DNA of 56,223 nucleotides from Chitinispirillum alkaliphilum (GTDB lineage: Bacteria > Fibrobacterota > Chitinivibrionia > Chitinivibrionales > Chitinispirillaceae): positions 1 through 56,223 of the forward strand of contig LDWW01000024.1 in NCBI GenBank assembly GCA_001045525.1, in the 5' to 3' direction. Every line of letters starts with the position of its first letter. Position 1 is the stretch's first letter. The notes below the pieces were generated by a model. The model did not search any database, had not been told where the DNA came from, and saw only the letters and a list, made by a program, of their open reading frames with translations. Positions 44,875 to 55,787 of the stretch are shown one piece after another. Made by a program: the position numbers and the translations under genes.

Positions 44875-46626
44875 CTACCAACGATACTCAGGACGCGGAG
44901 TATAGCTGGTGTGAAGAAGCTCGTGAGATTTTTTACTCAACGGACTTCCCAGGAACTCAGCATAGAGTCTCTGAATCTGGGCGTTGTTGTGTGAGCATCT
45001 TTTCTCGGCCTTAATGTCATCGTTATAGAGTCCAGCAGCACGTGCTTTCCGTTTTTCGTCATCAGCACCATATGGCTGCCCACCTCCACCGACACAACCC
45101 CCTTTACACGCCATCACTTCAATGAAGTGATATGGAGGTTCTTCGCCTTTTTCTGTGGCAGCTTTAACTCTATCAAGAACTGAAGCGATATTTGCCATTC
45201 CATGCGCAACGGCGATTCTCACCTCTGTGCCTTCAACGTCAATTTTAGCTTCCTTTACACCATCCAAGCCGCGTGTCTCGGTAAAATTAACATCGGCAAG
45301 ATCTTTTTTGGTGATCAGGTGGTATGCGGTGCGCAGAGCAGCCTCCATAACACCACCGGTAGCTCCGAAAATGGTTCCCGCTCCGGAGTAATCTCCCAGA
45401 ATCGAATCAGCCTCTTCATTGGGCAGCTTATTGAAATCGATTCCAGCAGACTTTATCATTCTGCTAAGTTCCCGGGTAGTGAGGGATACATCGATATCTT
45501 TCTGACCACTTGAGAACATCTCTTCAGAACGTGCGATTTCAAATTTTTTAGCTGTACATGGCATAATGGAAACCATGAATATTTTCTCCGGATCGATACC
45601 CATTTTTTCAGCATAGTAGGTTTTTGAAAGCGATCCTACCATAGACTGAGGAGATTTGGCTGTTGAGAAATGAGGGATCATATCGGGATAGAATTTTTCC
45701 AGATAATCAACCCATGCAGGACAGCATGTAGTGATCAGCGGTATTGGAGCTGATTTTTTTGTAAATCTCTCGACAAATTCAGATCCCTCTTCCATGATGG
45801 TAAGATCAGCACCGAAATTTGTATCGAATATTGCTTTGAACCCAAGCTGACGCAGTGCAGCATATAGTTTACCGGTCTGAAGAGTTCCCGAAGGCCAACC
45901 AAAAGCTTCTCCGATAGCCACTCTTACAGCAGGAGCAATCTGCACAACAGGAACCATATCGGGTTTGCGCAGTGCGTTCCACACAATGTGCTCTTCAGAT
46001 TTTTCCACAATTGCACCCACCGGACAGTGCGCACTACACTGACCACACTTAATGCAGGGGCTGTCATTAAGACTGACATCTCCCGCAGGTGCGATACGTG
46101 TGTTTTCACCTCTGCTCAGGAATTCAAGAGCCCACACCCCCTGCATGTCCTGACACACTTTTGCGCATCGGCCACAAAGTACACATTTTTCAGGATGAAG
46201 TGACAGCGAAGTGGTGGAGTTATCTTCAGGAAGATCCCTTAGTCTCTGTTCAAATGTCATTTCCCTGATTCCGAATTCAGCAGCCAAACGCTGGAGTTCA
46301 CAGTTCTGGTTACGCAGACATGTGAGACATTCATTTGGATGTGTTGAGAGGATAAGTTCGATTACATTTCTTCTAACCTCTACGATTTCGGAATCATGAG
46401 TTACGACATTCATTCCCTCAGAAACAGTGGTTGCACAGGCCCTGAGCATTTTTGGTGAGTTGTCAACTTTAACGATACAGATCCCACATGCCGCCCAGGC
46501 TTCCAGATCGGGATGGAAACATAGAGTTGGAATGTTGATCGATACCTCTTTTGCAGCCTGCAGGATAGTAGTTCCTTCCTGCACGCTTACATTTTTTCCG
46601 TCTATTGTTAAATTTACTTTTTTCAT
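44875..46626 (-). CDS. hydA: NADH-dependent [FeFe] hydrogenase catalytic subunit HydA
   Basis: 583 residues. Order of domains: [2Fe-2S] ferredoxin (Cys36, 47, 50, 64), His-ligated [4Fe-4S] (HPNECLTCLRNQNCE, 96-109), two [4Fe-4S] (CVLCGRCAKVC, CIKCGQCSAHC), then the H-cluster domain: TTCCPAW (Cys301/302), MPCTAKKFE (Cys357), MACKGGCVGGGGQPY (Cys507 and Cys511). Motif L1 has Thr where Ser is usual (TSCCPxW). With HydB and HydC it forms the electron-bifurcating complex that evolves H2 from NADH and reduced ferredoxin. Last gene of the operon. Confidence 0.97.
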   Translation of the reverse strand: MKKVNLTIDGKNVSVQEGTTILQAAKEVSINIPTLCFHPDLEAWAACGICIVKVDNSPKMLRACATTVSEGMNVVTHDSEIVEVRRNVIELILSTHPNECLTCLRNQNCELQRLAAEFGIREMTFEQRLRDLPEDNSTTSLSLHPEKCVLCGRCAKVCQDMQGVWALEFLSRGENTRIAPAGDVSLNDSPCIKCGQCSAHCPVGAIVEKSEEHIVWNALRKPDMVPVVQIAPAVRVAIGEAFGWPSGTLQTGKLYAALRQLGFKAIFDTNFGADLTIMEEGSEFVERFTKKSAPIPLITTCCPAWVDYLEKFYPDMIPHFSTAKSPQSMVGSLSKTYYAEKMGIDPEKIFMVSIMPCTAKKFEIARSEEMFSSGQKDIDVSLTTRELSRMIKSAGIDFNKLPNEEADSILGDYSGAGTIFGATGGVMEAALRTAYHLITKKDLADVNFTETRGLDGVKEAKIDVEGTEVRIAVAHGMANIASVLDRVKAATEKGEEPPYHFIEVMACKGGCVGGGGQPYGADDEKRKARAAGLYNDDIKAEKRCSHNNAQIQRLYAEFLGSPLSKKSHELLHTSYTPRPEYRW

Positions 46627-46649: not shown

Positions 46650-48440
46650 TTATTCCCTAATAACCGCATCGAATTTACATGCCTGTTCACATGCACCGCA
46701 CTTAATACACAATTCATTATTGACGACATGTGGTTTTCGTTTTTCTCCGGTAATTGCATCCACAGGACATTTCTTAGCACACAGCCCGCATCCAATGCAC
46801 TTATCAGCAATAATTATGTAACTCAGGAGACTTGAACATTTCTTCGCCGGACATTTTCTGTCGTTAATATGAGCCATGTACTCATCTTCAAAATAGGTTA
46901 GAGAAGAGATGACCGGGTTTGGAGCAGTTTGCCCCAGACCACATAATGATGCCCTGCGCATCGCCTGACTCACCTGGCGCATCTTCTTTATATCTTCCTC
47001 TTCCCCATTTCCATTTGTGATTTTTTCAAGCAGACTGTGCAACTGACGCCCACCTACCCTACAGGGTGCGCATTTGCCGCATGATTCATCCACAGTGAAT
47101 TCCAGATAAAACTTTGGAACATCCACCATACAGTCATCCTCATCCATAACAATCATCCCACCCGATCCCATGATCGAACCAAGCTTGGAGAGGTTGTCAT
47201 AGTCAATTGGAGTATCCAGGTAATCAGCGGTTATAACACCTCCCGACGGGCCACCAGTCTGGACAGCTTTGAATTTTTTACCGTTTGGGATTCCTCCACC
47301 TATGTCGTAGACGATTTCGCGGAGTGTAGTACCCATAGGCACTTCGATCAAACCTGAATTTTTAATTTTCCCTGTAAGAGCAAATACCTTTGTACCCTTG
47401 GAGTTTTCTGTTCCGATTTTTGAAAACCAGCTTCCGCCTTTCGCAATGATCACGGGAATACATGCGAATGTCTCCACATTGTTAATTACGGTTGGTTTAT
47501 CCCAAAGACCTTTTACCGCAGGGAACGGAGGACGAGGTTTTGGCATACCGCGTTTTCCCTCGAGTGATGCAAGAAGGGCGGTTTCCTCACCACACACGAA
47601 TGCACCTGCACCCAGGCGGATCTCTATATCGAAGTCAAACCCACTATCCAGAATATTTTTACCCAGAAGCCCTTTTTCTTTGGCCTGAGCAATAGCTACT
47701 TCCAAACGGTGGATTGCAAGGGGGTATTCTGCTCTGATATAAATATAGCCCTGATTAGCATTGACAGTGCGACCTGCGATTGTCATTGCCTCGAGAATAG
47801 AGTGAGGATCACCTTCCAGTGTACTGCGATCCATATATGCTCCCGGATCCCCTTCATCGGCATTACAAACGACATACTTCTGATCGCCCTGAGCATCCTT
47901 TGTAAAGCCCCATTTCATCCAGGTCGCAAACCCGGCCCCACCTCTTCCGCGTAACCCTGAGACCTTCAGCTCATTGAGAATATCCTCGGGTTTCATCTCA
48001 AAGAGTGCTTTTTCCAAAGCCAAATACCCATCCCGTGCGATATACTCATCGATATCCTCAGGATTGATAAATCCGCAGTTTCTCAAAACAACACGAAATT
48101 GTTTCTGGTAAAAATCAATGTCATCAATTTTGGCGTGTTTATTATTTGCCTGACCATCATAGAGCAGCCTGGTAACTTTTCTTCCCTTCTCTATATGCTC
48201 AGCAACAATTTCCTTGGCATCTTCAGGTACGACTTTAACATAAAAACTCTCATCGGGAAGCACCTTTACGATAGGTCCCTTTTCACAGAATCCAAAGCAG
48301 CCGGTTTTGACCACCTGAGCGTCATTTGAAAGCCCACGAGACTCCAGCTCACCCAAAAGGTTTTTATAGATATCGTCAGCCTTACTGGATTCACATCCCG
48401 TTCCACCGCATACCAGTATAAAATTTTTGTAACTCATCAA
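46650..48440 (-). CDS. hydB: Electron-bifurcating hydrogenase subunit HydB (NuoF-like)
   Basis: 596 residues. An N-terminal thioredoxin-like [2Fe-2S] domain (CGGTGCESSKADD...TGCFGFC) precedes the NuoF-like part with the FMN/NADH site (GLRGRGGAGFATWMKWG, VVCNADEGDPGAYMDR), an SLBB segment, and the cluster CGKCAPCRVGG. Two more C-terminal clusters follow (CIGCGLCAKKCPVDA, CIKCGACEQACKFDA). HydB binds NAD(H) and is the bifurcation subunit. 13 bp after the 128-aa ferredoxin gene, 23 bp before hydA. Confidence 0.96.
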   Translation of the reverse strand: MMSYKNFILVCGGTGCESSKADDIYKNLLGELESRGLSNDAQVVKTGCFGFCEKGPIVKVLPDESFYVKVVPEDAKEIVAEHIEKGRKVTRLLYDGQANNKHAKIDDIDFYQKQFRVVLRNCGFINPEDIDEYIARDGYLALEKALFEMKPEDILNELKVSGLRGRGGAGFATWMKWGFTKDAQGDQKYVVCNADEGDPGAYMDRSTLEGDPHSILEAMTIAGRTVNANQGYIYIRAEYPLAIHRLEVAIAQAKEKGLLGKNILDSGFDFDIEIRLGAGAFVCGEETALLASLEGKRGMPKPRPPFPAVKGLWDKPTVINNVETFACIPVIIAKGGSWFSKIGTENSKGTKVFALTGKIKNSGLIEVPMGTTLREIVYDIGGGIPNGKKFKAVQTGGPSGGVITADYLDTPIDYDNLSKLGSIMGSGGMIVMDEDDCMVDVPKFYLEFTVDESCGKCAPCRVGGRQLHSLLEKITNGNGEEEDIKKMRQVSQAMRRASLCGLGQTAPNPVISSLTYFEDEYMAHINDRKCPAKKCSSLLSYIIIADKCIGCGLCAKKCPVDAITGEKRKPHVVNNELCIKCGACEQACKFDAVIRE

Positions 48441-48453
48441 TCCCCCTGATTAC

Positions 48454-48840
48454 TTAAACAATGTCAGCTGCGGGTTTATCGAAAATATGATCACTCAACA
48501 GCGATTTATTCACAATATGCTTCTCCACAATACTGCGGGCCACATCAGGTTTTACATTTCCGTAAACAACTGCAGGCATATCGGGAGCTATCACCTCAAC
48601 AGTCGGTTCTGCATAGCAAAGCCCCATACATCCGGTTTGGGTCACAGCAACATTACCAAGTTTCCTGCTGTCAATTTCATCTAAAAATGCATCGAATGAT
48701 TCTTTCGCCCCTGCAGCTATTCCGCAAGTCCCCATACCTATAATAACCTTTACGGTTTTTCCTTCGGAATCTCTTCTTCCAAGCTCATTTTTCTTATCTT
48801 CACGGAGCTTTTTGAGATCTGCCAGTGTCAATTTTGCCAT
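48454..48840 (-). CDS. Thioredoxin-like [2Fe-2S] protein of the hydrogenase operon
   Basis: 128 residues with Cys ligands GMGTCGIAAGAKES and TQTGCMGLCYAEPTVEV, the pattern of NuoE/HydB-type thioredoxin-like ferredoxins. The same fold is fused to HydB's N-terminus. A free-standing copy is common in clostridial and Thermotoga-like hyd operons (sometimes called HydD), where it may shuttle electrons or be an accessory subunit. Tightly placed between the HATPase gene and hydB. Confidence 0.88.
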   Translation of the reverse strand: MAKLTLADLKKLREDKKNELGRRDSEGKTVKVIIGMGTCGIAAGAKESFDAFLDEIDSRKLGNVAVTQTGCMGLCYAEPTVEVIAPDMPAVVYGNVKPDVARSIVEKHIVNKSLLSDHIFDKPAADIV

Positions 48841-48855
48841 TTACATTCCCCCTAC

Positions 48856-49395
48856 TTAAAGTAAGCCTTCTTCTAAAGACTGAAGATATTTTCTAACTGC
48901 AACCAGAACCTGACCATCTTCAAAATCATCAGCACTTCCCATAACCTCTGATCTCAAAACAGTATAAGAACCGCCGGCACTTTCTCTGTGTAACCTAAGT
49001 TCAAACTCACCTTTCATACTAAACAGGCACAGAACCGCAGAGGAGAGGTTTCCAACAGGAGGCAGGTCAGGATGATTACGCGGGCATGAAAACAATAGTG
49101 ATGTTCCGGTACCTTTTTCTGAAGAAATATCAAAACTACCATCACACTGTGAAGCAAGCTGTGCAAGAAAAGAGATTCCTAAGCCGACTTTGCGATGTTC
49201 GTGCTTTGCTTTTTCGGTATAGAAAGGATTTTTTGCTTTCCTGAGCTGCTCTTCATCCATTCCGGTACCGTTATCCGCAACATAAAGCTTGAATTCATCA
49301 GCCTTTTCAAGGAAATCAACGATTATAAGGCTTGATTTGGCTTCAATGGAATTTTGCACCAGATCGAGTAGGTAATCTGCTAATGTGTGATGCAT
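48856..49395 (-). CDS. HATPase_c protein in the hydrogenase operon
   Basis: 179 residues. Residues 1-110 are a GHKL ATPase domain: N box LLDLVQNSIEAKS, G1 DNGTGMD, and G2 GLGISF. There is no phospho-acceptor His domain, so it is not a complete sensor kinase. The C-terminal 60 residues are unassigned. Two bases separate it from hydC. It may be an anti-sigma-type or partner-modulating kinase for the operon. A second GHKL protein (50491-51417) sits across the divergent promoter. Confidence 0.85.
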   Translation of the reverse strand: MHHTLADYLLDLVQNSIEAKSSLIIVDFLEKADEFKLYVADNGTGMDEEQLRKAKNPFYTEKAKHEHRKVGLGISFLAQLASQCDGSFDISSEKGTGTSLLFSCPRNHPDLPPVGNLSSAVLCLFSMKGEFELRLHRESAGGSYTVLRSEVMGSADDFEDGQVLVAVRKYLQSLEEGLL

Positions 49396-49397
49396 CG

Positions 49398-49889
49398 TTA
49401 TTTGTTCATCTTGTAATATTTTTCGAGAATTCCCGGAATCTTAGCCCGGGTCAGACTTCCGTAAACTTCACCATCAATGGTCATGACCGGAGCAAGTCCG
49501 CAACAGCCAATGCACCTGACAGCTTCAACTGAAAAGAGACCATCTTCAGTTGTAGAGTTGACCCCTACACCGAGATTAACCTCAAGTTCTTTAATCAAAT
49601 CTTCGCCACCCTTAAGGTAACATGCGGTACCCATGCAAACTGAGATAATATGCTTACCTGGCTTATTCAGTTTGAAGTAGTGGTAAAATGTCATAACGCC
49701 ATAGATATTTGCCAAAGGCACATCCAGCTCCTTTGACACTGCAAAGACGACATCGCGGGGGATATATCTGTATATCTCCTGGACTTTGTGAAGAATCATG
49801 ATAAGATTACCCGGTTTGTCTTTCCACTCTTTGATGAATGAGCGAAGTTCGGGCGTCAACTCTGTCAGAACCGGCATGCTTTGAGGCAT
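49398..49889 (-). CDS. hydC: Electron-bifurcating hydrogenase subunit HydC (NuoE-like)
   Basis: 163 residues with the NuoE fold: LIMILHKVQEIYRYIPRDV, GVMTFYHYF, and the [2Fe-2S] ligands CMGTACYLKGGE and RCIGCCGLAPVM. It carries electrons within the HydABC complex. First gene of the structural operon; AGGAGG eleven bases before ATG 49889. Its promoter region holds two Rex-like operators. Confidence 0.95.
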   Translation of the reverse strand: MPQSMPVLTELTPELRSFIKEWKDKPGNLIMILHKVQEIYRYIPRDVVFAVSKELDVPLANIYGVMTFYHYFKLNKPGKHIISVCMGTACYLKGGEDLIKELEVNLGVGVNSTTEDGLFSVEAVRCIGCCGLAPVMTIDGEVYGSLTRAKIPGILEKYYKMNK

Positions 49890-49959: not shown

Positions 49960-49977
49960 TTGTGAAAACCGTAACAT
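49960..49977. promoter_or_regulatory. Rex-like operator, proximal to hydC
   Basis: TTGTGAA-AACC-GTAACAT fits the Rex operator layout (TTGTGAA-N4-TTCACAA, clostridial TTGTTAA-N4-TTAACAA) with a perfect left half and five of seven matches to the clostridial right half. It lies about 70 bp upstream of the hydC ATG. Confidence 0.55.
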
Positions 49978-50128: not shown

Positions 50129-50494
50129 ATGCTTTTGGCTAATATATCGGAAACACTGCAGGCTAAAATCATCCACAAATCAACCCAGTTTGACTCAAGT
50201 GAGATCCAAAGCGTGATAGTAAGTGACCTTATGAGTGATGTATTGATGACGGATCAGCCTTCTCCGGTTCTGCTATCTTCACTATCAACAGATCAGACAA
50301 TCAGAACCGCAAGCATGATTGATGCTTTGGGAGTGATTATCACTCAAAACAAACCACTTCCTCAGGGCATAGACTCCCTTGCAGAAGAACTCGACATAAC
50401 TCTTCTTCATACCCACATGGACAAATTTGATGCTTGCATTCTTTTAGGAACACTCATGGGTAAATGTAACATAAAGGGAAGTGTAAATCAATGA
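50129..50494 (+). CDS. DRTGG domain protein 1
   Basis: 121 residues: SEIQSVIVSDLMSDVLMTDQPSPVLLSSLSTDQTIRTASMIDALGVIITQNKPLPQGIDSLAEELDITLLHTHMDKFDACILLG. This is the small DRTGG fold, otherwise found in phosphotransacetylase and HprK-like proteins; a ligand is not established. GGAG eight bases upstream. First gene of the operon that ends with rex; it overlaps the next gene by four bases. Confidence 0.82.
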   Translation: MLLANISETLQAKIIHKSTQFDSSEIQSVIVSDLMSDVLMTDQPSPVLLSSLSTDQTIRTASMIDALGVIITQNKPLPQGIDSLAEELDITLLHTHMDKFDACILLGTLMGKCNIKGSVNQ

Positions 50495-51417
50495 CAGTAT
50501 CACCCCTTGGTTCCACCACCTCATCTCTTCTTACCCTTGAGATAATATTTAAACTCAAGATCAGAGATGTCATGTCTTCCGATGTGGTATCTGCAGTACG
50601 AACCGATACTCTTCGCCACGTGCAGCACCTGATGAAAACCCACAGGATCTCAGGCGTCCCCATTGCTGAAAATGGCCGGATTTTTGGCCTAATCAGCGTT
50701 GACAACATTCTCAGAGCCCTTGATTTCGGCTATATCGATGACACAGTCGAAGCCTACATGACCAGAAACTTAATGGTTTTGGAAGAAGAAATGCCTTTAT
50801 CCATTGCCATCTCATGGTTTGAAAAATATCAGTTCGGACGATTTCCGGTGATCGACAACAATGAAACACTTACAGGAATTTTAACCAGCCGCGATATTAT
50901 TTCGAAGCTGCTTTCCGAACTGAACCGTAAGATCGACCAAATTGAAAGCAGCCGCATCAGTCAGAACAGAACAGATTTGCAAAGCTACTACAGGGAATTT
51001 AATGTAAAGAAATATGATTTCAAGAGCGGTGGAGCAGCTTCAAATGCTTTCCGAAAAGTTTTAAAGGAAAACGGCTATCCGGTTGCAATCATCCGCCGCG
51101 TTGCAATAACCTGCTATGAACTGGAAATAAACATGGTAGCTCATTCCGATGGCGGTAAGTTGTGTTGCTTGATTGAAAATGGGCGGATAGAAATCATCGC
51201 CAGAGATTGTGGCCCCGGGATAAAGGATATAGACAAGGCAATGACAGAAGGTTTCAGCACTGCAAGTGAATGGATACGGAGCCTTGGTTTTGGAGCAGGG
51301 ATGGGATTACCAAACGCAAAGAAATCGTGTGACGAATTTGACATCCGCTCCCAACCGGGCCTTGGGACAGTTGTAAAGGGTACCGTTTACTTTAAGCCAG
51401 AAAAAGACAAGTCGTAA
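50491..51417 (+). CDS. CBS-pair protein with C-terminal HATPase domain
   Basis: 308 residues. Two CBS domains (about 22-85 and 88-150: KIRDVMSSDVVSAVRTDTL...HRISGVPIAENGRIFGLISVDNIL; VEAYMTRNLMVLEEEMPL...FGRFPVIDNNETLTGILTSRDII) usually bind adenine nucleotides. The C-terminal GHKL ATPase (about 175-305) has ELEINMVAHSDGG, DCGPGI and GFGAGMGLPNA, most like anti-sigma-factor kinases (RsbW/SpoIIAB type). It could sense energy charge and signal through a partner switch. No sigma factor or anti-anti-sigma partner is in this operon. Confidence 0.88.
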   Translation: MTVSPLGSTTSSLLTLEIIFKLKIRDVMSSDVVSAVRTDTLRHVQHLMKTHRISGVPIAENGRIFGLISVDNILRALDFGYIDDTVEAYMTRNLMVLEEEMPLSIAISWFEKYQFGRFPVIDNNETLTGILTSRDIISKLLSELNRKIDQIESSRISQNRTDLQSYYREFNVKKYDFKSGGAASNAFRKVLKENGYPVAIIRRVAITCYELEINMVAHSDGGKLCCLIENGRIEIIARDCGPGIKDIDKAMTEGFSTASEWIRSLGFGAGMGLPNAKKSCDEFDIRSQPGLGTVVKGTVYFKPEKDKS

Positions 51418-51459
51418 AAAAATAAAATAGACCTTAACTTTCTAACACGGAGAAAGCAC

Positions 51460-51798
51460 ATGACTCCCGAACAACTTCAATCACAGCTTGACCTCGAGTC
51501 AATCCAGCCAGCTCACAGGGCTCAAACCGTATCCACCGGGTATACTTCAGACCTCCTCAGCGATGTAATGGCAAATGCTCAGGAAGATTCTGTACTGATT
51601 ACTATTCAGGCACATGTAAACACCATAGCAGTAGCATCTCTTGCAGGAATACCGGCAATAATAGTCTGCAACAGCCGCCCAGTTCCTGAGGATATGATAG
51701 AAGCTGCCCAAAAGGAAAATATTGCCATTTATCGCAGCCAGGAGAATCAGTACACAGTTTCACACCGTGTTTACCAGGCTTTGAACCGGAGCAGCTAA
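51460..51798 (+). CDS. DRTGG domain protein 2
   Basis: 112 residues, a diverged paralogue of the first DRTGG protein: GYTSDLLSDVMANAQEDSVLITIQAHVNTIAVASLAGIPAIIVCNSRPVPEDMIEAAQKENIAIYR. GGAG precedes ATG 51460. Its stop overlaps the next start (TAATG), so the PHP protein is translationally coupled. Ligand unknown. Confidence 0.8.
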   Translation: MTPEQLQSQLDLESIQPAHRAQTVSTGYTSDLLSDVMANAQEDSVLITIQAHVNTIAVASLAGIPAIIVCNSRPVPEDMIEAAQKENIAIYRSQENQYTVSHRVYQALNRSS

Positions 51799-52523
51799 TG
51801 TCATTTTGGGCGGACCTCCATATCCACTCCTGCCTTTCACCATGTGGATCGCTGGATATGTCTCCATCCGCAATAGTTAAAAAAGCAGTTGAGAGGGGTA
51901 TAAACTGTCTTGCTCTTTCAGATCATAACAGCGCTCTCAATTGTAATGTGATGGAAAAATTATGTGCAGAGTCAGGCATATTCTTCCTTCCGGGCCTGGA
52001 AGTAACAACAGTTGAAGAAGCGCATGTAATCTGTCTTTTTGACACAAGTGAAAAAGCCCTTGAACTTGGGGATTACATATACAAAAAACTACCCGAGATC
52101 CAGAACATTCCGGAAAAATTCGGCGATCAGGTATACGTAAATGAACATGAAGAAATCGAGGGGGTTGTAGAGAAGTATCTAGGATTGGCTGCAGGTGTAT
52201 CAGTTGAGGAACTTCGTGAAGTCGTTTTTGGCCTAGGCGGACTTTTCATTCCTGCACATGTAGACAAACCAGTTTTCAGTGTTATCTCCCAACTTGGGTT
52301 TCTTGGAGGGAGTTACAGCGCAGTGGAGATCTCCAATCCATACGGATATGAGGGCCGAAAAATTGCATCTGTTTATGATTATGCATTTATAAGCTCTTCG
52401 GATTCACACTACACCCATCAAATCGGTAAAAATCACATTTTTTTTGATATGCAGGAAGCATCATTTCAGTCATTTATTGAGGTATTGAACAATAAGAGAT
52501 ACAGTATCAATACACTTCAATAA
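51798..52523 (+). CDS. PHP domain metal-dependent phosphoesterase-like protein
   Basis: 241 residues with the PHP signatures WADLHIHSCLSP (motif I), ALSDHNSALNC (motif II), PGLEVTTVEEAHVICLF (motif III), PAHVDK and SSDSHYTHQIG. These bind two or three metals and hydrolyse phosphoesters. Substrate unknown; a signalling nucleotide is possible given the CBS, GHKL and Rex neighbours. Coupled to the DRTGG protein upstream; 49 bp before rex. Confidence 0.87.
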   Translation: MSFWADLHIHSCLSPCGSLDMSPSAIVKKAVERGINCLALSDHNSALNCNVMEKLCAESGIFFLPGLEVTTVEEAHVICLFDTSEKALELGDYIYKKLPEIQNIPEKFGDQVYVNEHEEIEGVVEKYLGLAAGVSVEELREVVFGLGGLFIPAHVDKPVFSVISQLGFLGGSYSAVEISNPYGYEGRKIASVYDYAFISSSDSHYTHQIGKNHIFFDMQEASFQSFIEVLNNKRYSINTLQ

Positions 52524-52572
52524 ATTACAAATTGGAAACATCTGTGCAATTACAGGAAAAGAGAGAATAACG

Positions 52573-53229
52573 ATGGTAACAAACAAGAACTGTATTCTCA
52601 GGTTGTCAAGATACAAAAACGCTCTCCACCGTTTTAAATCGATCGGGTTTGTAAAAATATTTTCTGATTATCTGGCAGACGCGGTCGGAGTTACCAGCGC
52701 TCAGGTCAGAAAGGATTTTTCTCTATTTGGAATTTCGGGAAACAAAAGGGGTGGCTACCATATCGACTCCCTTCTGGAACAGCTTCATGAGATACTTGGA
52801 AAAAATGAATTGCAAAAAGTCGTAATCGCAGGAGCTGGAAGCCTTGGCAGTGCTTTGATCAAGTATAAAAATTTCGAAAAAGAGGGTATCAAACTAACTG
52901 CAGCCTTTGATATCGATCCCGCCAAACACAATACCAAATTATCGATACCGGTTTATCCGCTTGAAAAACTACACAGTTTTGTTCAGAAAAATCAAATAAA
53001 AATCGGTATTATCAGCGTACCGGAAGTTGCAGCCCAACCGACTCTTGATCTTATGATAAAAGCAGGCATAAGAGGTATACTTAATTTTGCTCCGATTCAG
53101 CTTAAAGCGCCCGAAGATTGTGTGGTGAATAATGTTAATCTTGAGCTTGAGCTGGAAAACCTCATCTACTTTGTAAACACTCTCCAAAAAGCCAAGGGCA
53201 CACTGCCTTTTTCAAAAAGAACAGCATAA
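52573..53229 (+). CDS. rex: Redox-sensing transcriptional repressor Rex
   Basis: 218 residues. A winged helix at the N-terminus (LRLSRYKNALHRF...VTSAQVRKDFSLFGISGNKRGGYHID) and a Rossmann NAD-binding domain (VVIAGAGSLGSALIKY...LTAAFDIDPAK...KIGIISVPEVAAQPTLDLMIKAGIRGILNFAPI). Rex dimers bind operators when NAD+ is high and release them on NADH. With the Rex-like sites upstream of this operon and of hydC it should autoregulate and control hydrogenase output according to NADH/NAD+. Confidence 0.95.
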   Translation: MVTNKNCILRLSRYKNALHRFKSIGFVKIFSDYLADAVGVTSAQVRKDFSLFGISGNKRGGYHIDSLLEQLHEILGKNELQKVVIAGAGSLGSALIKYKNFEKEGIKLTAAFDIDPAKHNTKLSIPVYPLEKLHSFVQKNQIKIGIISVPEVAAQPTLDLMIKAGIRGILNFAPIQLKAPEDCVVNNVNLELELENLIYFVNTLQKAKGTLPFSKRTA

Positions 53230-53972: not shown

Positions 53973-55787
53973 GTGCATAAAAAAAACAAATACACAGATT
54001 GTACTGATACACAAGAAATGCAAAACAAGCATTCAAATACCCCAGACTCCATTTCTCAACCTGTATCATTTGATGAGATTGTCGATAAGGCACTTCACTT
54101 TTGCCGGGAACTTCCGCATGCCTGCTCTGACTACTGCAATCAAATCTCAGACCTCAAATATCGCCTGACCGGGGGCAAACTCCACCTTGCCGTTCTTGGT
54201 CAGTTTAACCGTGGCAAAAGTACTTTTATCAATGCACTGCTTGGGCTTAAAGTGCTCCCCACCTCCATTCTCCCCGTTACATCAGTTCCAACCCGAATCG
54301 AATATGGTGAGGAACACACATGTACTATCAGCTTTCTTAACGGCAAGCCTGACTTGTCCATACGTAATGACAGGGAAAAAATTTCAGCAGCACTTATAGA
54401 GTATGTTGCAGAAGAAAACAATCCAAAAAACCAACTTTGTGTCAGAGATGTAAAACTAACCTGCAACAGCTCCCTGCTGGCAAACGGTACAGTTCTGATT
54501 GACACTCCGGGTTTCGGCTCAACCCATGTTCATAACACAAGCACCACAGTAGATTTTCTCTCTGGCTGTGATGCAGCGATTTTTATTCTTTCAGCCGACC
54601 CACCTTTCACCCAAACAGAGGTTGAATTTTTAAAACAGGTAAAGCTCTACATACCTAAACTGTTTTTCGTGCTTAACAAAATCGACATACTTTCGAAAGA
54701 CCAGAAAATACAAGTTGACAGGTTTATAAAAAACATTCTCAAAGAAAAACTCCAGCATAGTGGGAATGTTAAGCTATTCCATATCTCTGCCGTCATGGGA
54801 GAAGAGGCTCAGAAACACTCACCCAAAGATAAGCACTGGAAATCCAGCGGCCTGGAGGAGATCAAAGCCGAAGTTTTAGATTTCATGGTCAGAGAGAAGT
54901 ATTTCACTCTTTCTGAGGCTCTTGGAGACAAATTCAAAGCTTCCTTATCCGGAATAGAACATATCATAAGAGAGGAAATTGTAAAACTTAAATCACCTAT
55001 TGATCACAGCGCAAAAGAGCAGCAAAAAATCACTTCATTGCTGGAGGATTTAGCGAAACACAAAGATTATCAATTAAAAAAACTGGATGCCGGAGTTGAG
55101 GAACTCATACAAAGGATTGAGAAACAAATTACCACCTCCGCAGAAAACATTAGGTCTGATATAGATCAAATTATGGATGAAAAACTTATTGAGATTCACA
55201 ATTTTAACAAATCTGCTTCCAATCTTGCGATATTCATACCTTCAGCGCTAAGAAACTCCTTTGACAAATTGCAGTTCGAAACAATGAGCCTCACCGACAA
55301 ATCTTTCAGATTTTTTGTTTCGGCACAGGAGAGTGAATTGCAGCTTTTTATTTCCTCCATTTGGAAATTTCCCCCTAAACCACTGAACGAACCTTTTGTT
55401 GATCAAGAGATTACCCCACCACTGTATCAGGATTTTTTCACAGTGAGCAATTTCCCCCTGCCCCAAAAACCTCCATTTTTAATTTTAGTGTCTGCCCATA
55501 AACAAGCTAAGATCATAAAAGAATATTTTAAAACACCGATTGGAAAACAGATCAATTTTCTCAAAACCCGTGTTATTAATGACTCTACAGCTTCACTCAA
55601 CAAATCAGCTGAAATTCTCCGAAATACAGTCATTTCCAGATACGATCTAACAAAACAGCTCCTTGAAGATATGCTGCAAAAGGAAACCGATAAACTAAAT
55701 AGTAGCGCAAAAGAAAACAGCAAGCTCCAGGATTTAGAGTCGCAGTTAAGGTGTGTGGAAGAGATCAGAAGTTTACTAGTAAACTGA
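53973..55787 (+). CDS. Dynamin-like GTPase
   Basis: 604 residues from GTG 53973; ATG 54018 (residue 16) is an alternative and neither has a strong ribosome site. The GTPase domain has P-loop GQFNRGKSTFINALLG (about residues 76-91), the switch I Thr in PVTSVPTRI, DTPGFGS and NKIDIL. After residue 300 the sequence is helical coiled coil (long stretch about 330-410) with a hydrophobic patch (about 485-500), as in bacterial dynamins that remodel membranes. TTGACA at 53829 may be a -35 element. Monocistronic, with a long A+T-rich leader and a minisatellite behind it. Confidence 0.88.
   Translation: MHKKNKYTDCTDTQEMQNKHSNTPDSISQPVSFDEIVDKALHFCRELPHACSDYCNQISDLKYRLTGGKLHLAVLGQFNRGKSTFINALLGLKVLPTSILPVTSVPTRIEYGEEHTCTISFLNGKPDLSIRNDREKISAALIEYVAEENNPKNQLCVRDVKLTCNSSLLANGTVLIDTPGFGSTHVHNTSTTVDFLSGCDAAIFILSADPPFTQTEVEFLKQVKLYIPKLFFVLNKIDILSKDQKIQVDRFIKNILKEKLQHSGNVKLFHISAVMGEEAQKHSPKDKHWKSSGLEEIKAEVLDFMVREKYFTLSEALGDKFKASLSGIEHIIREEIVKLKSPIDHSAKEQQKITSLLEDLAKHKDYQLKKLDAGVEELIQRIEKQITTSAENIRSDIDQIMDEKLIEIHNFNKSASNLAIFIPSALRNSFDKLQFETMSLTDKSFRFFVSAQESELQLFISSIWKFPPKPLNEPFVDQEITPPLYQDFFTVSNFPLPQKPPFLILVSAHKQAKIIKEYFKTPIGKQINFLKTRVINDSTASLNKSAEILRNTVISRYDLTKQLLEDMLQKETDKLNSSAKENSKLQDLESQLRCVEEIRSLLVN

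Follow-up and report, generated by a model that had tools for sequence, protein, structure and literature searches.

What is the task of a run of five genes, encoding two DRTGG proteins, a pair of CBS domains joined to a GHKL-type ATPase, a predicted PHP-family metallo-phosphoesterase and the redox-sensing repressor Rex, that lies beside the operon of a bifurcating hydrogenase? The question is raised by the 56,223-nucleotide contig LDWW01000024.1 of Chitinispirillum alkaliphilum (hereafter the window), in which the five open reading frames (ORFs) that an earlier note had described as a series ending in rex, i.e., DRTGG1, CBS-GHKL1, DRTGG2, PHP and rex, are all present at 50129-53229 on the + strand (Table 1). 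This cassette is divergent from the genes hydC-GHKL2-Fd2-hydB-hydA-TM1266-hydF-hydG-hydE, of which hydG and hydE were assigned from sequence and both served as queries. With moderate confidence, we propose that it is a form, with CBS as the sensor, of a conserved cassette for signalling in ferredoxin/H2-linked energy metabolism, in which the input on the ATPase (GHKL1) is interchangeable.

The evidence for an interchangeable input comes from comparison with Bacillota, where the GHKL orthologue mostly stands unfused, with the gene for a putative sensory [FeFe] hydrogenase of group D (HydS) next to it downstream, a counterpart to the CBS pair that the earlier note had missed. The usual gene order there is DRTGG1-GHKL1-HydS-DRTGG2-PHP-HydC-GHKL2-Fd2-HydB-HydA. 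Among loci with at least 2.5 kb downstream, with GHKL1 and GHKL2 counted by separate hidden Markov models, HydS lies directly 3' of unfused GHKL1 in 31 of 34 and of CBS-fused GHKL1 in one of 57 (Fisher p=9e-20). At the N terminus the HydS proteins carry two [4Fe-4S] motifs and at the C terminus a Cx2Cx4Cx16C motif; they keep the H-cluster cysteines and are without the proton-relay Cys, which matches the M2e/group-D signature (PMC8163306). No group-D HydS match was found in 32 of 39 CBS genomes; the other seven match (>390 bits), as do all six unfused controls. In one of these seven (G124) CBS-GHKL and HydS occur together in one operon, and four of the six others checked have an unfused GHKL1 directly before HydS. 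Four CBS-GHKL genomes (G059, G060, G078 and G085) thus also carry an unfused GHKL1, each directly before HydS (loci L168, L169, L170 and L173), and GHKL1-HydS occurs as a two-gene pair standing alone in L169, L170 and L141. The window has no HydS, and the only homologues in its genome, PAS-type and HydA-like, lie on contig C28.

What the window shares with the group-D (M2e) HydS cassettes (Thermoanaerobacter, C. thermocellum; TamHydS) is the orthologous GHKL1 together with DRTGG1 and DRTGG2, PHP, GHKL2, the thioredoxin-like [2Fe-2S] protein Fd2 and HydABC; it differs from them in having a CBS pair on the GHKL and no HydS, in the divergent orientation of cassette and hyd operon and in the inclusion of rex. 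It is about an even call whether sensors have been swapped on one GHKL core, i.e., an H2-sensing [FeFe] hydrogenase in Bacillota and an adenine-nucleotide-sensing CBS pair in Fibrobacterota, Spirochaetota and Verrucomicrobiota/Kiritimatiellota, with H2 or redox state and energy charge being read by the same circuit. As a separate observation, L138:6034-7947 (-) encodes, next to a HydS-GHKL1 pair, an [FeFe] hydrogenase of sensory type joined in one protein to a methyl-accepting chemotaxis signalling domain.

CBS-GHKL1 is composed of the CBS pair (residues 23-140), a long helix (133-158) and a SpoIIAB-like Bergerat ATPase (residues ~165-300). Its structure model has a predicted local distance difference test (pLDDT) score of 82 and a predicted template modelling (pTM) score of 0.45, which makes the domain placement within it unreliable. 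The ATP site, with the N-box E210xxxN214xxxH218, the G1 motif D239xGxG and the G2 motif GxGxG, is invariant in 121 homologues (86 fused and 35 unfused sequences; residues E210, N214, H218, D239, G241, G243, G266, G268 and G270), and the acidic residue four positions before the N-box Asn is present (E210). SpoIIAB and RsbW are anti-sigma serine kinases, and the ATPase half resembles them in fold (Foldseek against SpoIIAB, 1til/1l0o, E 2e-10, TMt 0.81), in the DxGxG and GxGxG motifs and in the N-box spacing ExxxNxxxH, whereas sequence similarity is weak (E 0.002) and no sigma factor gene or STAS partner is seen in the cassette. The closest folds to the CBS half include adenine-nucleotide-binding proteins, among them AcuB with AMP/ADP/ATP. 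In CBS2 the ribose motif G-h-h-T/S-x-x-D is conserved (G129 100%, T/S132 94%, D135 98%), and in CBS1 S69 (98%) and D72 (87%; N in the window). These residues would fit adenosine-nucleotide binding, and the ligand is probably AMP, ADP, ATP or a related nucleotide. CBS-DRTGG family II pyrophosphatases and AcuB-type CBS proteins share the CBS pair and DRTGG folds with the cassette; unlike in these pyrophosphatases, CBS and DRTGG are here in separate proteins, the pyrophosphatase domain is absent and the output is a GHKL ATPase. Fused and unfused GHKL1 also differ in the ATP lid (W261/S264 in the former, often E264 in the latter); this sensor-specific difference may be driven by lineage and was left out of the argument, since the few fused sequences with E264 were not traced.

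Natural fusions and gene spacing tie the cassette together. Single ORFs join DRTGG1 to GHKL1 (L134), HydS to DRTGG2 (L145) and PHP to GHKL2 (L114, L117); with CBS-GHKL1 itself, these fusions connect most of the cassette, the GHKL2 of the window's hydC operon included. The GHKL and 2Fe-2S proteins of that operon are as the earlier note had described them, and its assignment of both to the same unit agrees with the single operon of Bacillota and with the PHP-GHKL2 fusions. Its description of the genes as translationally coupled holds for the overlapping junctions DRTGG1/CBS-GHKL1 (4 bp) and DRTGG2/PHP (1 bp), and not for CBS-GHKL1/DRTGG2 and PHP/rex, which are separated by 42 and 49 bp. In 76 of the 81 adjacent DRTGG-PHP gene pairs found, the two genes lie at most 30 bp apart or overlap by at most 30 bp, an arrangement beyond chance. 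The closest CBS-GHKL relative, in a Chitinispirillum metagenome-assembled genome (MAG), is 75% identical and lies in the same gene order.

Linkage of the unit to [FeFe] hydrogenase is strong in two phyla. The CBS-GHKL family is distributed over Fibrobacterota, Spirochaetota, Verrucomicrobiota/Kiritimatiellota, Lentisphaerota, Margulisiibacteriota and a few Bacillota. GHKL1, mostly unfused, occurs in 73 of the 199 genomes of our Bacillota sample, and the A6 hydrogenase is present in 67 of these 73 compared to 72 of the 126 without GHKL1 (odds ratio 8.4, p=6.5e-8). Likewise, among 149 Spirochaetota genomes, group A [FeFe] hydrogenase was found in 16 of 17 with close CBS-GHKL orthologues and in 49 of 113 without the family (p=5e-5). 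The association does not reach significance among the 41 relatives of the window (12/16 vs 13/25, p=0.13), and there CBS-GHKL and hydrogenase are neighbours on the same contig only in G000, G001, G006 and G033. At loci with 5.5 kb on both sides, HydABC genes lie beside unfused GHKL1 in 27 of 32 cases and beside CBS-GHKL in seven of 33. Divergent copies of CBS-GHKL lie near hyp genes (L178, with hypA/D/E/C by Pfam; L175, with hypD by Pfam; L174 and L177, by sequence judgement only), near rnf (L176, L179 and L182; Rnf-Nqr by Pfam in L179) or beside carbon monoxide dehydrogenase/acetyl-CoA synthase (CODH/ACS) genes (L180, confirmed by Pfam), and RnfC/RnfD-like neighbours are recurrent in Bacillota loci. 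What the loci have in common is not bifurcating hydrogenase alone but ferredoxin/H2 energy metabolism. The reading of the earlier note is thus supported in part: the proposed tie to [FeFe] hydrogenase is borne out by a conserved cassette linked to bifurcating hydrogenase; an exclusive tie is not, because most CBS loci are without a nearby hydrogenase and divergent copies lie beside hyp, rnf and CODH/ACS.

Some of these loci have further features. L174, L175, L177 and L178 come from spirochaetes without group A [FeFe] hydrogenase, and in L174, L175 and L178 a DRTGG gene was also called beside CBS-GHKL. One run at L182:3934-14824 holds rnf genes, the complete CBS cassette and the genes for HydC, HydB and a short HydA-like protein; this genome has no group A [FeFe] hydrogenase match and possibly contains another BfuABC-type enzyme. 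The hydrogenase cassette of L034 comes from an environmental MAG, whose species label, Borreliella garinii, is probably wrong.

Several points weigh against the proposal of a hydrogenase-linked cassette with exchangeable sensors. The divergent CBS-GHKL group of Spirochaetota shows no association with [FeFe] hydrogenase (6/14), and 26 of the 33 CBS loci with full flanks have no hyd genes nearby. One locus has both CBS and HydS (L130), two have DRTGG-HydS without GHKL1 (L171, L172) and three carry neither sensor (L119, L140, L144). In the alternation counts, loci of one clade are not independent, and sampling differed between the sets: similarity to the window brought in most CBS loci, and the unfused ones came from one phylum. 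The GHKL-only tree, in which the main CBS clade is supported, requires at least three changes between fused and unfused forms, of which the starred branches force only one. Finally, a Pfam search that covered the cassette found no STAS domain in it.

The remaining proteins of the cassette bear on a first alternative. DRTGG1 scores slightly below the Pfam DRTGG cut-off (23.3 vs 25.2 bits) and contains an invariant Ser36 and a near-invariant Asp33. DRTGG2 is below the cut-off for DRTGG (24.2 bits) and above that for Hpr_kinase_N (30.8 bits); its weak DRTGG call was settled by its structure model (pLDDT 95), for which, in a fold comparison that covered DRTGG2 only, the best PDB matches are the DRTGG domain of the C. 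perfringens pyrophosphatase and AF1212, which carries Pfam DRTGG (3l31, 2ioj; TMq 0.76-0.83). Residues D31, S34, T48, Q50, H52 and N54, invariant in the homologue alignment, sit in the model at the ends of two strands, where they would suit a ligand pocket. In PHP, the metal-ligand positions H8, H10, D42, H43, E68 and H76 are conserved at 100%, H154 at 96% and D202 and H204 at 93%, and an invariant S-P-C follows the HxH motif. Its only sequence relatives in the PDB are the 5'-3' exoribonuclease 7ug9, the putative metal-dependent phosphoesterase 3e0f and 2yb1, labelled amidohydrolase in the PDB and a 3',5'-nucleoside bisphosphatase. PHP might therefore be a 3',5'-nucleoside bisphosphate phosphatase or short-RNA exonuclease of a nucleotide or RNA metabolism unit, with DRTGG and CBS as allosteric nucleotide domains and a secondary link to hydrogenase. 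The co-occurrence of DRTGG and CBS in nucleotide-regulated pyrophosphatases and the many CBS loci away from hydrogenase agree with this reading, which we nevertheless consider unlikely in view of the association in two phyla, the HydS alternation and the HydS-DRTGG2 and PHP-GHKL2 fusions.

About as unlikely is a role in assembly or repair, in which the GHKL proteins would be ATP-driven, chaperone-like factors of the Hsp90/MutL branch that build or protect HydABC-type iron-sulfur flavoenzymes together with DRTGG, PHP and Fd2, with HydS and CBS as accessories. The conserved GHKL ATP site and the tight operonic linkage with hydC/B/A, and elsewhere with [NiFe] maturation, rnf and CODH/ACS, all of them metal-cluster systems, are consistent with such a role. 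However, GHKL1 is absent from 72 of the 139 Bacillota genomes with A6 hydrogenase and is thus not needed to make the enzyme, the stand-alone GHKL1-HydS pairs look like a sensor and its transducer, and the fold of GHKL1 is nearer to SpoIIAB.

A second [FeFe] hydrogenase operon of the window's genome (G000) lies on contig C28 (L163:5495-11061, -) and comprises a Rex paralogue, a [2Fe-2S] protein, HydS with PAS, a SpoIIE-type phosphatase, another [2Fe-2S] protein and a HydA-like protein. It resembles the hfs operon (HfsA-D) of Thermoanaerobacterium (PMC11837493), which like the cassette places a sensory hydrogenase and a Ser/Thr-type regulatory enzyme next to hydrogenase and which, unlike it, uses HydS-PAS and a SpoIIE phosphatase; in C. 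alkaliphilum this hfs-like operon exists separately, besides the cassette. A classical partner switch, in which that phosphatase would antagonise the GHKL1 kinase on a shared substrate, could be read from this grouping and its similarity to hfs, but it is very improbable and was rejected, as the phosphatase does not co-occur with CBS-GHKL among the 41 relatives (7/16 vs 8/25, p=0.33) and no STAS protein is found in the cassette.

For the favoured signalling cassette we infer the following pathway. The output core would consist of the SpoIIAB-like GHKL1 working with the two DRTGG proteins, PHP, GHKL2 (a HATPase_c domain without histidine-phosphotransfer domain, plus a C-terminal region of ~70 aa) and the [2Fe-2S] protein. 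The input on this core would be swapped, HydS sensing H2 or redox state with unfused GHKL1 in Bacillota, and the CBS pair, joined to GHKL1 by the long helix, sensing adenine nucleotide here. The nucleotide state at the CBS pair would gate ATP use by GHKL1, most likely for protein phosphorylation by analogy with SpoIIAB. GHKL1 would modify a partner, for which a DRTGG protein is the nearest candidate because of the fusion and the gene overlap; PHP and GHKL2 would act in the same pathway, and the outcome may set the level or activity of the hydrogenase operon, alongside Rex.

Rex itself is well supported by its family model (NF003996, 238.6 bits vs a cut-off of 138). A perfect palindrome lies before DRTGG1 (Table 1); in the 4.43 Mb genome its 18-bp core is found nowhere else as an exact copy, and L021 (9604-9625, before DRTGG1) and L003 (2813-2834, near the cassette) have related palindromes. 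It resembles the canonical Rex site without matching it, the gap between hydC and DRTGG1 contains one canonical site with two mismatches (at 49960), and the number of canonical sites in the window is at chance level, so that Rex control of the cassette region is no more than plausible. Downstream of rex, the window contains a large GTPase-like ORF (53973-55787, +), and L021 and L028 have a similar ORF after the cassette.

Table 1. Coordinates of the cassette, the neighbouring hydrogenase genes and the palindrome in the window.
Feature	Position	Strand	Size and evidence
DRTGG1	50129..50494	+	121 aa; Pfam DRTGG E 6e-5
CBS-GHKL1	50491..51417	+	308 aa; Pfam two CBS (2e-23) and HATPase_c (1e-5)
DRTGG2	51460..51798	+	112 aa; Pfam and structure model
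PHP-family metallo-phosphoesterase (predicted)	51798..52523	+	241 aa; Pfam PHP and PHP_C, both above cut-off
Rex redox-sensing repressor	52573..53229	+	218 aa; NCBIfam NF003996
GHKL2	48856..49395	-	179 aa; HATPase_c 9e-14
Fd2, thioredoxin-like [2Fe-2S] protein	48454..48840	-	Pfam, NCBIfam
hydC (NuoE-like subunit)	49398..49889	-	Pfam, NCBIfam
hydB (NuoF-like subunit)	46650..48440	-	from sequence; used as HydB query
hydA, NADH-linked [FeFe] hydrogenase group A6	44875..46626	-	NCBIfam 813 bits vs cut-off 765
Perfect palindrome, 9-bp arms TTATGTTAC-CTTT-GTAACATAA	50085..50106	.	22 bp, before DRTGG1; candidate Rex operator

Earlier papers describe group-D hydrogenases that occur together with a kinase-like gene upstream of bifurcating hydrogenases and propose a regulatory link (PMC3561251, PMC3608648, PMC8163306), and how these sensory [FeFe] hydrogenases signal is an open question (PMC8163306, PMC13104023). 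In the openly accessible literature we found neither the CBS version nor the HydS/CBS alternation nor the fusions described, an earlier account elsewhere being possible, and DRTGG and PHP are named there together with hydrogenase only in a single mention in one D. vulgaris mutant survey. The cassette is therefore a known but uncharacterised arrangement in a new version. The HydS/CBS alternation points to a specific partner, GHKL1; if our proposal is true, group-D hydrogenases would signal through GHKL1, a route that was left open (PMC8163306). A further suggestion is that a single uncharacterised regulatory cassette is common to hydrogenase, [NiFe] maturation, Rnf and CODH/ACS loci, which would bear on how fermenters and acetogens control H2 and electron flow.

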